DNA from: Streptococcus sp. sy004
GTDB lineage: Bacteria > Bacillota > Bacilli > Lactobacillales > Streptococcaceae
Direction: 5' to 3'
NCBI RefSeq assembly: GCF_007859205.1
Contig: NZ_VOHP01000003.1
Location: 62,001-126,000 of the forward strand
Length of the DNA: 64,000 nt
A program made the translations under genes and the position numbers. Position 1 is the stretch's first letter. Each line of letters opens with the position of its first letter. The notes below the pieces were generated by a model. That model had not been told where the DNA came from and ran no database searches. It worked only from the letters and a program-made list of their open reading frames with translations. Positions 5,800-9,427 of the stretch are shown one piece after another.

Positions 5800-8301
5800 T
5801 TAATCTTCTTTACGTTTGTAAGCCATACCACCAGCCATAGCTAACAAACTCATTCCCACAACACTTGCTAAACGTGAATCATCTCCTGTATTAGGTAAGA
5901 TTTGACCTTGTGATGAATGATCACTTTTATCTTTAGACATTGTTTGTTCAACTTTTGCTACTAGAGATTGATAACTTTCAGGAGTAGCTTTAGATACGGT
6001 TGCTACTTGTTTTTCTACCATTTGAGATGCTGAATTCGTTAATTCATTAACTTTTGCTTCAATAATCTCTTTTGTTGGCATTTGCTTATCAACGTTTTCT
6101 TCAACTTTATCCATTGGCAGAGTTGGTACTTCTGTTGTTTCATTCGTTAATGTCTGCTTGTCAACAACCTCTTCTACCTTATCAACTGGAAGCGTTGGAA
6201 TTTCTGTTACCTCTTGCATTGGTGTCTGCTTGTCAACAATCTCTTCGACTTTATCAACTGGAAGAGTTGGTGCTTCCAATGTCTTCAAAGCTAATAAAGC
6301 AACATCATAGGCTTCTTGTTTCACAACTAAGTCATCCTTAGCAGTTGCATATTTTACTTTGGCTTCATCTAAAATTACAATCAGTTGAGATAATTTTTCT
6401 TGTTGCTCTGATAGGTTATTTAGAGCTGTTTTTTCATTATCTTGAGCCTGAGCAAGACTTTCTTCTTCTTTAACGACATTCTCTTTAGCTGTTTGTAATT
6501 CGTTTTCTGCTTTTGTCAAAGCTTCTTGATTTTTTAATAATTCTGCTTGAGCAGCTAACAAAGTATTTTGAGCTTCAGTTGTGTCTAATGCAGACAAAGC
6601 TTGTTGAGCTGTTTCTAATTTAGACTTAGCTTCATCAATTTTTTTCTGAGCTTCTGCTAACTTAGCAGTATCTGGTGCTGTGCCATTAACTAGTGGAGTT
6701 GTATCAAATTTCTGCTTATCTGCTGACAGTGGATTGTTTTGTGCTTCCCATGGACGAACAATATACTTATCTTTATCATTATCATATGGGCTATTGCTAG
6801 AATCAGAAAAATCATAATTACCAGGAACACCGTTAGCATTATTTTCCTCTAAGAAAGTATGAAGTAAGACAGTGTATCTATCTTTTTTATCATTAGTAGC
6901 ATTTTTAGGGTTGAATTGAACACTAACACTTGTTGCTGCTAAATCAGTTTTAGCTTTTGTCCCTTCAATTCCTGCAATATCATTAGCACGTTCAAAAGCA
7001 CGTTTTAAATTGCGTTTACTAGCATCTTCATGTTGGCTGAAAACGTCCTCAAGCATTAACTTTTTAAAACCATCATAGACTAACTCTTTTAGTTGCCCCA
7101 TAGTGACTGTTTGGCTTGAAGAAATGCTATCTTTAGATAATAACGCTACTGTCTCTTGAACTTGACGTGTTTCTAAATAACGTTGCTTATCCGCATCAAT
7201 TTCAGCACGCTTAGCTGCCGATGCGTAAGATTTTTCACGGTCTACAGTCGTCGCCAAACCATTCTTAGAAGCCATTTCATTAATTAAGTCATAAGTATAG
7301 GCTTCGCTATACTCACCTTTACGTGCATGACCGTCTGGATTATCTGATCCATCTTTAGTTGGATTGAGAACAATCCCCTTAGCAACATCTTGAGCAAAAT
7401 CATACATACTCACAGTCGAAACAACTGATTGAGTTCCAAATTGTTGGCGAATTTGATTGATAATATTAACTGAAAATAGATTGATTTCTTTTCGTTGATC
7501 TTCAGTCAGATTAGCCAAGTCAACTGTAGCTGTTTCTTGGCTACCATCATAAGATAATGCACTTTTTAATTGATTAGCTGCGTTTGTCACCGCTTGAATG
7601 GCCGAATTATCAACTGTTTTATTAATGTTAGCTACTTGTTTTTTCAATGCATTAATATAGCTATCACTCAACTTAAATGATACATTATCTACAGGATAAT
7701 ACTTGTCATCTCCTGTGTTTAGTAACTCATTTTTCTCTTTTTCAGCTGTTTCCAAATCTGTTTTTGCCGATGTTACTGCATCTTGTAATTTAGTCTTTTC
7801 TTCTTCTGAAGAGCTAGACTGTGCTTGATTAACAGCTTCTTGTGCCAATGCAACTGCTTCTTCTGATTTTGAAACAGCTTCTTGCTGAGTAGATACTTGT
7901 TGTCCAGCTTGAACTACAGCTTGATTTGCTGATACAAGATCCTTTTCTGCAATTTCTTTTTCTGATGTCGCCGTTGAAGCATCTGTCTGTGCTTGATTAG
8001 TAGTTTGTGCTTGAGTGTCAACAGCCACTTGAGCTGCTTTTACTTCTTCCAAAACAGCGGATTCTGTGTTTTGTGCTGTCGTTAGATTTTCTTGAGTAAC
8101 TACAACATTTTGTTGGGCATTTTCAAGATCTGTTGTTTGTTCTGAAACAGTTTCGTTAGTTGCCATAACTTGTGTAGTGGTATCTTCAGTAACAGTTTCT
8201 GTATCAGCAGATACTTGACTTGCTGTTCCAGCTAAAACACTTGCTACCGCAACACCAGCAACTACCCAACGTTTCTTTGCTTTATACATTTTCTTTTTCA
8301 T
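5800..8301 (-). CDS. LPXTG-anchored SEC10/PgrA-type surface protein
   Basis: An 833-residue cell-wall protein. The signal peptide (residues 1-33) has a KxYKxxKxW-like start (KMYKAKKRW) and ends in VSA-D. Residues about 35-200 are an Ala/Gln/Glu-rich coiled coil. Residues about 205-540 form a globular domain (FSVNIINQIRQQFG; DGHARKGEYSEAY) that I recognise as the SEC10/PgrA surface-exclusion/adhesin type. A second coiled coil follows (about 550-680), then three 24-residue repeats (PTLPxDKVEExVDKQ) and the sortase signal LPNTG near residue 802 with a membrane helix and basic tail. Such proteins usually mediate adhesion or aggregation. The promoter contains a 13-G tract, suggesting phase-variable expression. 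The gene stands alone, with its own terminator. Confidence 0.85.
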   Translation of the reverse strand: MKKKMYKAKKRWVVAGVAVASVLAGTASQVSADTETVTEDTTTQVMATNETVSEQTTDLENAQQNVVVTQENLTTAQNTESAVLEEVKAAQVAVDTQAQTTNQAQTDASTATSEKEIAEKDLVSANQAVVQAGQQVSTQQEAVSKSEEAVALAQEAVNQAQSSSSEEEKTKLQDAVTSAKTDLETAEKEKNELLNTGDDKYYPVDNVSFKLSDSYINALKKQVANINKTVDNSAIQAVTNAANQLKSALSYDGSQETATVDLANLTEDQRKEINLFSVNIINQIRQQFGTQSVVSTVSMYDFAQDVAKGIVLNPTKDGSDNPDGHARKGEYSEAYTYDLINEMASKNGLATTVDREKSYASAAKRAEIDADKQRYLETRQVQETVALLSKDSISSSQTVTMGQLKELVYDGFKKLMLEDVFSQHEDASKRNLKRAFERANDIAGIEGTKAKTDLAATSVSVQFNPKNATNDKKDRYTVLLHTFLEENNANGVPGNYDFSDSSNSPYDNDKDKYIVRPWEAQNNPLSADKQKFDTTPLVNGTAPDTAKLAEAQKKIDEAKSKLETAQQALSALDTTEAQNTLLAAQAELLKNQEALTKAENELQTAKENVVKEEESLAQAQDNEKTALNNLSEQQEKLSQLIVILDEAKVKYATAKDDLVVKQEAYDVALLALKTLEAPTLPVDKVEEIVDKQTPMQEVTEIPTLPVDKVEEVVDKQTLTNETTEVPTLPMDKVEENVDKQMPTKEIIEAKVNELTNSASQMVEKQVATVSKATPESYQSLVAKVEQTMSKDKSDHSSQGQILPNTGDDSRLASVVGMSLLAMAGGMAYKRKED
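6081..6296 (-). repeat. Three tandem 72-bp repeats in the surface protein gene
   Basis: Related units begin at 6081, 6153 and 6225, exactly 72 bases apart. Each encodes a 24-residue unit with the core PTLPxDKVEExVDKQ. They lie between the second coiled coil and the wall anchor, so they act as a stalk spacer that could change copy number by recombination. Confidence 0.85.
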
Positions 8302-8334
8302 ACATCTCTCCTATAATTATATTATTCACTTACC

Positions 8335-8367
8335 ATTATACTACCCCCCCCCCCCCATTTTTGTCAA
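8335..8367 (-). promoter_or_regulatory. Surface protein promoter with 13-G tract between -35 and -10
   Basis: On the minus strand a perfect TTGACA (8362-8367) and a perfect TATAAT (8335-8340) are separated by 21 bases, of which 13 are an unbroken G run (plus strand C at 8344-8356). The ribosome site GGAGAG and ATG follow within 35 bases. The spacer is four bases longer than the 17 optimum, so loss of G residues by slipped-strand mispairing should strengthen the promoter. Confidence 0.8.
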
Positions 8368-8422
8368 GGGGTTTTGCTTATTTTTTCAGCGTTTTTCTTG
8401 AAACGTATAGGGGAATAGTAAA

Positions 8423-9427
8423 TTAACGAATCGCTTTTCCACGCATGTAAACTTTTAAAAGAGGGAAAAATAACCCATTGGCAACAGACAACAACTTAAC
8501 TTTTTTACTAGATAATTCTTTCCAAAGCTGTGGATTTAACTCCTTTATTCTCTTTTGATAATCCAAAAACTCTTGTCGACCTTGCTTCGCATCGTCTACA
8601 TAAAGACAAATATGAGTATCTAAAATAAATTCATGATCTAGTAACTGTTTCTTTAAAATTTGTGTTCTAGTCGCTGATGGATACTCTTTCTCAATTTGAT
8701 TATAAAGATTAACCAATTGATATGTCACTTGACGATGCATTTCCCGATTCTTAACAAAATTAGCAGGATTAACACTTTGTTCCGCCGTCCCCATACGATA
8801 ACAATAAACTCGATGAGGCAAATAACAAGCTGTCTGTAAAAATGGCATTGGAAAGGTGATATACTCCATATCAACATAAAACATTTTTTCATCAATATGG
8901 ATTGCATTTTCTTTTAAAATAGCTGTCTTAAAAGTCGTTGCATGCATCATTGGCAATCGATCAGCTTCTTTCAATAATTGATCATAGCTTACAAGAACAC
9001 CCGCTTTTTGATGAGGAAAATCTTGTACTTTAATCTCTTTCGTATCCATATTATGATCCTCATAAGGAGTTATCACAATATCAACATCTAAGTCTTGTAA
9101 ATCCTCAACCAATCTGACCAATTGATCCGTATTAACCCAGTCGTCACCATCAACAACCTTAAAGTATTTACCCGTTGCCAGTTCAATCCCTTTATTGATT
9201 GTTGACCCATGTCCTCCATTTTTTTTATCAATAACACGAATTGTATCAGGAAATTGACGCTCATAAGTTCTTGCTTTTTCTAAAGTACCGTCTGTCGATC
9301 CATCATTAACAATAAGAATTTCTAACCTGTCATTTATTTTTTCATTTAATAGTGTTGGCAAACAGGCATCCATATATTGTTCTGTATGATAAGATGGCAC
9401 TGTTATGGTTAAAATTTTTGACATCAT
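8423..9427 (-). CDS. Family 2 glycosyltransferase
   Basis: A 334-residue GT-A fold enzyme. Residues 5-110 hold the nucleotide-sugar site: ITVPSYHTEQYMDACL, ILIVNDGSTDGTLE, KNGGHGSTINKGIELA and the metal-binding KVVDGDDWV. The C-terminal half is alpha-helical with no clear membrane span, so it is probably a peripheral membrane or cytoplasmic enzyme; donor and acceptor cannot be told. It starts 12 bases after a second family 2 enzyme and lies upstream of the LPXTG gene on the same strand, which makes glycosylation of that protein or of a wall polymer an open possibility, not a demonstrated role. Confidence 0.88.
   Translation of the reverse strand: MMSKILTITVPSYHTEQYMDACLPTLLNEKINDRLEILIVNDGSTDGTLEKARTYERQFPDTIRVIDKKNGGHGSTINKGIELATGKYFKVVDGDDWVNTDQLVRLVEDLQDLDVDIVITPYEDHNMDTKEIKVQDFPHQKAGVLVSYDQLLKEADRLPMMHATTFKTAILKENAIHIDEKMFYVDMEYITFPMPFLQTACYLPHRVYCYRMGTAEQSVNPANFVKNREMHRQVTYQLVNLYNQIEKEYPSATRTQILKKQLLDHEFILDTHICLYVDDAKQGRQEFLDYQKRIKELNPQLWKELSSKKVKLLSVANGLFFPLLKVYMRGKAIR

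Follow-up and report, generated by a model that had tools for sequence, protein, structure and literature searches.

The run of 13 G that separates the -35 and -10 hexamers at positions 8335-8367 of the window (the whole stretch of 64,000 nucleotides analysed here) is very probably best explained as the slippage-variable part of a promoter. The original prediction had proposed a phase-variable promoter at this site, and comparison across the genus upholds that reading: the layout recurs there far above controls, genes for surface or secreted proteins lie behind it, and the tract changes in length while its flanks stay constant.

Read directly on the minus strand from 8367 to 8335, the sequence is, 5' to 3', TTGACA AAAAT GGGGGGGGGGGGG TAG TATAAT. 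Neither hexamer departs from the consensus, and 5 + 13 + 3 = 21 nt, 13 of them G, lie between the two. The arrangement had been described without its strand and proved exact on the minus strand; the accompanying arithmetic (a spacing of 17 at 9 G and of 18 at 10 G) also holds on recomputation. The features of the locus, with the evidence for each, are as follows.

8423..9427, minus strand: family-2 glycosyltransferase gene, upstream and co-directional (ORF and profile).
8368..8397, minus strand: A-rich, UP-element-like stretch GAAAAACGCTGAAAAAATAAGCAAAACCCC (sequence, and comparison with poly-G promoters of the genus).
8362..8367, minus strand: -35 hexamer TTGACA, perfect (sequence).
8344..8356, minus strand: G13 homopolymer within the -35/-10 spacer (C13 on the plus strand), proposed slippage element (sequence; genus-wide recurrence).
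8338..8343, minus strand: alternative, poor -10 TAGTAT; with 13 G its distance to the -35 is 18 nt (sequence).
8335..8340, minus strand: -10 hexamer TATAAT, perfect, spacer 21 (sequence).
8316..8321, minus strand: second TATAAT, with no -35 (sequence).
8308..8312, minus strand: ribosome-binding site AGGAG, 6 nt 5' of the ATG (sequence).
5800..8301, minus strand: controlled gene, encoding an 833-residue LPXTG-anchored surface protein with a SEC10/PgrA domain and a KxYKxGKxW signal peptide (ORF and profile search).

The ATG of the 833-residue ORF lies 33 nt downstream of the -10 hexamer. A-rich DNA like that upstream of the -35 is common to most poly-G promoters of the genus, with a mean A content of 0.46-0.50 versus 0.31 in the window. 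The second TATAAT (8321-8316) was considered as a real -10 and rejected, since it has no -35, overlaps the leader and the ribosome-binding site, and is too near the latter for a useful leader.

G13 is the sole homopolymer of more than 8 nt in the window, where the next longest is of 8, and at the window's composition about 4e-5 G or C runs of at least 13 nt are expected in 64 kb. This figure, together with the strand-specific placement of such runs throughout the genus, speaks against chance, which, like an artefact of homopolymer length in the assembly, we regard as extremely improbable. Some sequencing methods make errors at homopolymers, which leaves an uncertainty of one G in either direction, but the differences of 5 to 7 G found in the comparisons below exceed base-calling noise.

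The strict pattern TTGACA-N-G8+-N-TATAAT was searched across the genus in 285 genomes, one for each species. Seventeen sites were found, in 16 of the 285 genomes, all with tracts of G9 to G18, and the reversed control pattern gave no match in the same 285 genomes. In a sample of 248 genomes from the rest of the phylum the strict pattern occurs in only 1, versus 16/285 in the genus (p = 3e-4). A second sample was blind to promoters: 92 listed tracts of at least 9 G, from 41 genomes, were scored without presupposing one. A -35/-10 pair with no more than two mismatches in total was present on the G strand of 37 of them, against about 3 when the flanks were shuffled. The reading of the promoter on the C strand (poly-C), run as a control, was rejected, with 1 tract of the 92. 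Long G runs in the genus are preferentially located inside promoter spacers, in one orientation. The spacers of the poly-G promoters range from 15 to 22 nt (median 19, sd 1.7) and those of ordinary TTGACA/TATAAT pairs, of which there are only 17, have a median of 17 and an sd of 1.2; the requirement for at least 9 G biases the poly-G spacer lengths upward. A broader scatter of spacers, combined with changes in tract length, is what slippage predicts.

Fifty distinct sites were collected in the genus, 45 of them with a downstream ORF. By a crude test, a secretion signal is present in 38 of these 45 products and in 14 of 59 other window genes, a difference whose significance (p = 4e-10) is optimistic because some of the 45 downstream ORFs are mutually homologous. 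YSIRK signals account for 15 of the 45. In the strict set, 14 of the 17 sites were flagged as preceding genes with a secretion signal, one of which encodes an LCP-family protein. Genes for SEC10/PgrA proteins also lie behind poly-G promoters in two further genomes, G021 (G18, spacer of 27 nt) and G032, from another family of the order (G9, spacer of 20 nt). At site L033, in genome G223, the gene immediately behind a poly-G promoter (G9, spacer of 18 nt) is of the LytR-CpsA-Psr type with which capsule operons begin. Seven congeneric genomes carry poly-G promoters of G9-G10, with TATACT as the -10, before genes for PspA-like, choline-binding proteins (L212-L218).

In the profile searches, the 833-residue protein scored 96.2 bits for the SEC10/PgrA domain (TIGR04320; curated cut-off 70), 22.9 for the LPXTG anchor (TIGR01167; cut-off 15.9) and 24 for the KxYKxGKxW signal (cut-off 18). 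The controlled gene had been called an LPXTG adhesin-like gene; with anchor and signal-peptide profiles above their cut-offs and the ORF directly downstream of the promoter, it is identified as the gene of an LPXTG surface protein. Its sequence assigns it to the SEC10/PgrA family, and an adhesin role is putative. A search of solved structures by sequence returned no related structure, the search for an ortholog in close relatives gave, outside its own genome, a best match with 33% identity that covers the protein only in part, and a plasmid search found no second copy of the locus. The surface gene, two glycosyltransferase genes and three small genes of the same direction form a block that is flanked by rsgA and the gene of an HTH regulator. 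In the nearest relative tested (G011, whose RsgA is 81% identical), rsgA adjoins the regulator and the block is absent, which makes it a lineage-specific block.

The upstream glycosyltransferase gene is separated from the surface gene by a gap of 121 nt, and no terminator-like site was found between it and the promoter, so that transcription of this co-directional gene could read through into the surface gene. It is nevertheless unlikely that expression comes mainly from such read-through, or is set by a regulator, with the tract having a small effect. The perfect -35 and -10 hexamers, the good ribosome-binding site and the clean leader of 30 nt favour a promoter belonging to the surface gene itself, and the same layout is found repeatedly before surface genes in unrelated contexts.

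Variation in tract length was assessed in orthologous promoters of congeners, nine pairs in all, in which 150 nt on each side were at least 95% identical and free of gaps. The tract differs in six of the nine (14/9, 16/9, 12/10, 12/11 and, twice, 10/11) and is of equal length in the other three. The pair with 14 and 9 G precedes a YSIRK gene, and its flanks are 99% and 100% identical. In addition, two tandem copies of a promoter within one genome have 16 and 10 G. Instability is inherent in runs of 13 G. We infer that the tract at 8344-8356 may likewise vary within its own species. These data make it very unlikely that the promoter is an ordinary constitutive one that does not switch, with the G tract as a structural spacer of fixed length: in most matched pairs the tracts are unequal, the largest difference being 7 G, and about 300 flanking bases hold no further insertion or deletion; the instability of such runs points the same way. 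Some observations do fit a fixed spacer. Orthologous sites are equal across species in the pairs L213/L215 and L217/L218, with 9 and 9 G, and the promoters of the PspA-like genes as a whole are nearly constant at G9-G10; this constancy was interpreted as meaning that rates or constraints differ, high variability not being needed at every tract. Homopolymer tracts of Cutibacterium acnes, moreover, were judged to be clade-consistent and to change slowly, not to switch actively (PMC4746626).

The slippage-variable promoter that we favour would operate as follows. It would be of the sigma-70 type, its strength set by the slippage-prone G tract. Replication would add or remove G residues and thereby shift the -35/-10 spacing. 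With about 9 to 11 G (17-19 nt), RNA polymerase would engage both perfect hexamers, and synthesis of the surface protein would follow. With 13 G (21 nt), as sequenced, the distance between TTGACA and TATAAT would be unfavourable, leaving no more than the poor TAGTAT, 18 nt from the -35, and a low output. The population would then be a random, reversible mixture of high and low expressers of a cell-wall protein. That spacing sets the output of this promoter, and which of the states is the on state, are thus proposed rather than observed. The presence of the weaker TAGTAT at 18 nt makes it safer to call the sequenced state weak than off.

Control of expression through slippage-driven changes of spacer length is the established reading for the porA, fetA and opc promoters of Neisseria meningitidis (PMC2791445). 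As in these, a homopolymer lies between the -35 and the -10; in Neisseria it is unstable, and its length sets the spacing and the expression of a surface protein. The differences are that the Neisseria genes encode outer-membrane proteins of a Gram-negative organism, whereas here both hexamers are consensus, the protein is one anchored to the wall by sortase and switching is only proposed. A Gram-positive parallel, also with poly-G in the promoter spacer, is PPA1880 of C. acnes (formerly Propionibacterium), in which 11, 13 and 15 G give spacers of 18, 20 and 23 nt and the protein is secreted only with 11 G (PMC3224659). By analogy with PPA1880, the G13 state of the present promoter would be a low or weak one. 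The analogy has its limits: PPA1880 is a PT-repeat protein of an actinobacterium, the comparison covered only three strains, and a frameshift is an alternative that its authors leave room for (PMC3224659).

It is possible, though we think it rather doubtful, that the tract varies without the 21-nt state being off, output being tuned in grades and G13 being an intermediate or even a good state. On this view, G13 would retain moderate activity through TAGTAT at 18 nt or through an A-like geometry of the poly-G DNA, and poly-G spacers are indeed longer on average than ordinary ones (median 19 against 17), a difference inflated by the requirement for at least 9 G. However, TAGTAT matches the -10 consensus at only 4 of 6 positions, and no protein was detected for PPA1880 with 13 G and a 20-nt spacer, in contrast to the 11-G, 18-nt form (PMC3224659).

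The genome of the present strain (G000; 10 contigs, rated 99.96% complete, but at 1.22 Mb small for the genus and perhaps not represented in full) contains seven G8+ tracts. Its gene content places it in Streptococcus, on the strength of YSIRK proteins and, in congeners, of PspA-like choline-binding proteins and an LCP/CpsA gene. Three further clear poly-G promoters are found among them, two before genes of YSIRK proteins (G10 and G11) and one before that of an LPKTxAVK-type protein (G10). One G8+ tract is intergenic. A run of G17 (L166, at G000:C3:104553) lies about 250 nt upstream of a gene whose secreted product matches SEC10/PgrA weakly; the run has no adjacent -10, so any effect would be exerted by another route. 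A second G13 run (L162, G000:C1:310013-310025) is located within a gene combining an N6-methyltransferase and Methylase_S, where it interrupts the specificity region between two specificity domains. The part downstream of this G13 is in another frame, which suggests a DNA methyltransferase switched by slippage, a candidate phasevarion.

Homopolymer switching of promoters had been said to be seldom described in streptococci. This is fair for poly-G spacers, but two other streptococcal tracts are known, a T tract at R28 (PMC7098570) and the poly-C of mga (PMC10330708). At the R28/Spy1337 locus of S. pyogenes, the transcript of an LPXTG protein follows an intergenic run of 9, 10 or 11 T in hundreds of isolates; unlike the present tract, this one is poly-T, its effect is tied to direct-repeat spacing near a divergent regulator, and a role of the -35/-10 spacer is unproven (PMC7098570). 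The poly-C tract of S. pyogenes mga is likewise a slipped-strand homopolymer switch for a streptococcal surface protein, but it lies in the coding region of the regulator and acts by frameshift (PMC10330708). The mechanism is known and it is its breadth in Streptococcus that is unexpected, no earlier description of a streptococcal poly-G spacer promoter having been found in the open literature (weak evidence, with subscription papers and preprints outside the search).

Beyond the genus, at least 119 stretches with the pattern came from scanning the genomes of 84,980 species; these counts are for the forward pattern, the reversed-pattern control covering the 285-genome set of the genus. The matches listed are chiefly from metagenome assemblies of gut Clostridia and Bacilli, and also from Saccharibacteria, Treponema, Streptobacillus, Helicobacter and others. 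Among these listed matches, 53 of the 83 ORFs that lie downstream are signal-like, versus 72 of the 291 remaining genes at these loci (p = 9e-11). From such sequence matches, the poly-G spacer device seems to be widespread but infrequent. The base before the G tract is C at 29 of the 37 sites of the genus sample and at 48 of 86 among the GTDB-wide matches listed, and the base after the tract is almost always T at poly-G promoter sites.

Streptococcal surface antigens are targets for vaccines, in colonisation and in serology. Differences in their expression between strains are usually ascribed to regulators. If several surface genes lie behind slippage-prone promoters, clonal populations would be mixed in their surface states, and the length of the tract, usually ignored or masked by short-read pipelines, would be a simple predictor of expression. 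We consider it reasonably likely that poly-G promoters at many loci across the genus independently randomise the output of YSIRK, LPXTG and PspA-like proteins (four such promoters in the present genome, together with the G13 frame switch in methyltransferase specificity) and, occurring sporadically elsewhere, mostly before secreted proteins, constitute an overlooked combinatorial system of surface variation in Gram-positive bacteria. With the comparative set, which pairs about 50 distinct sites with the genes behind them, the prediction of expression from tract length is directly testable in laboratory commensals.

G runs of variable length are also seen outside promoters. One genome (G053) carries six copies of a non-promoter family, of the form CCTTTTTTTC-G11-13-TAAAAATG or similar, in which the length of the tract varies within the single genome. 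Another recurrent element, AAATTTAA-G9-12-CTTTTT, is found with conserved flanks in many congeneric genomes; it is apparently a dispersed repeat, and its number of G varies.
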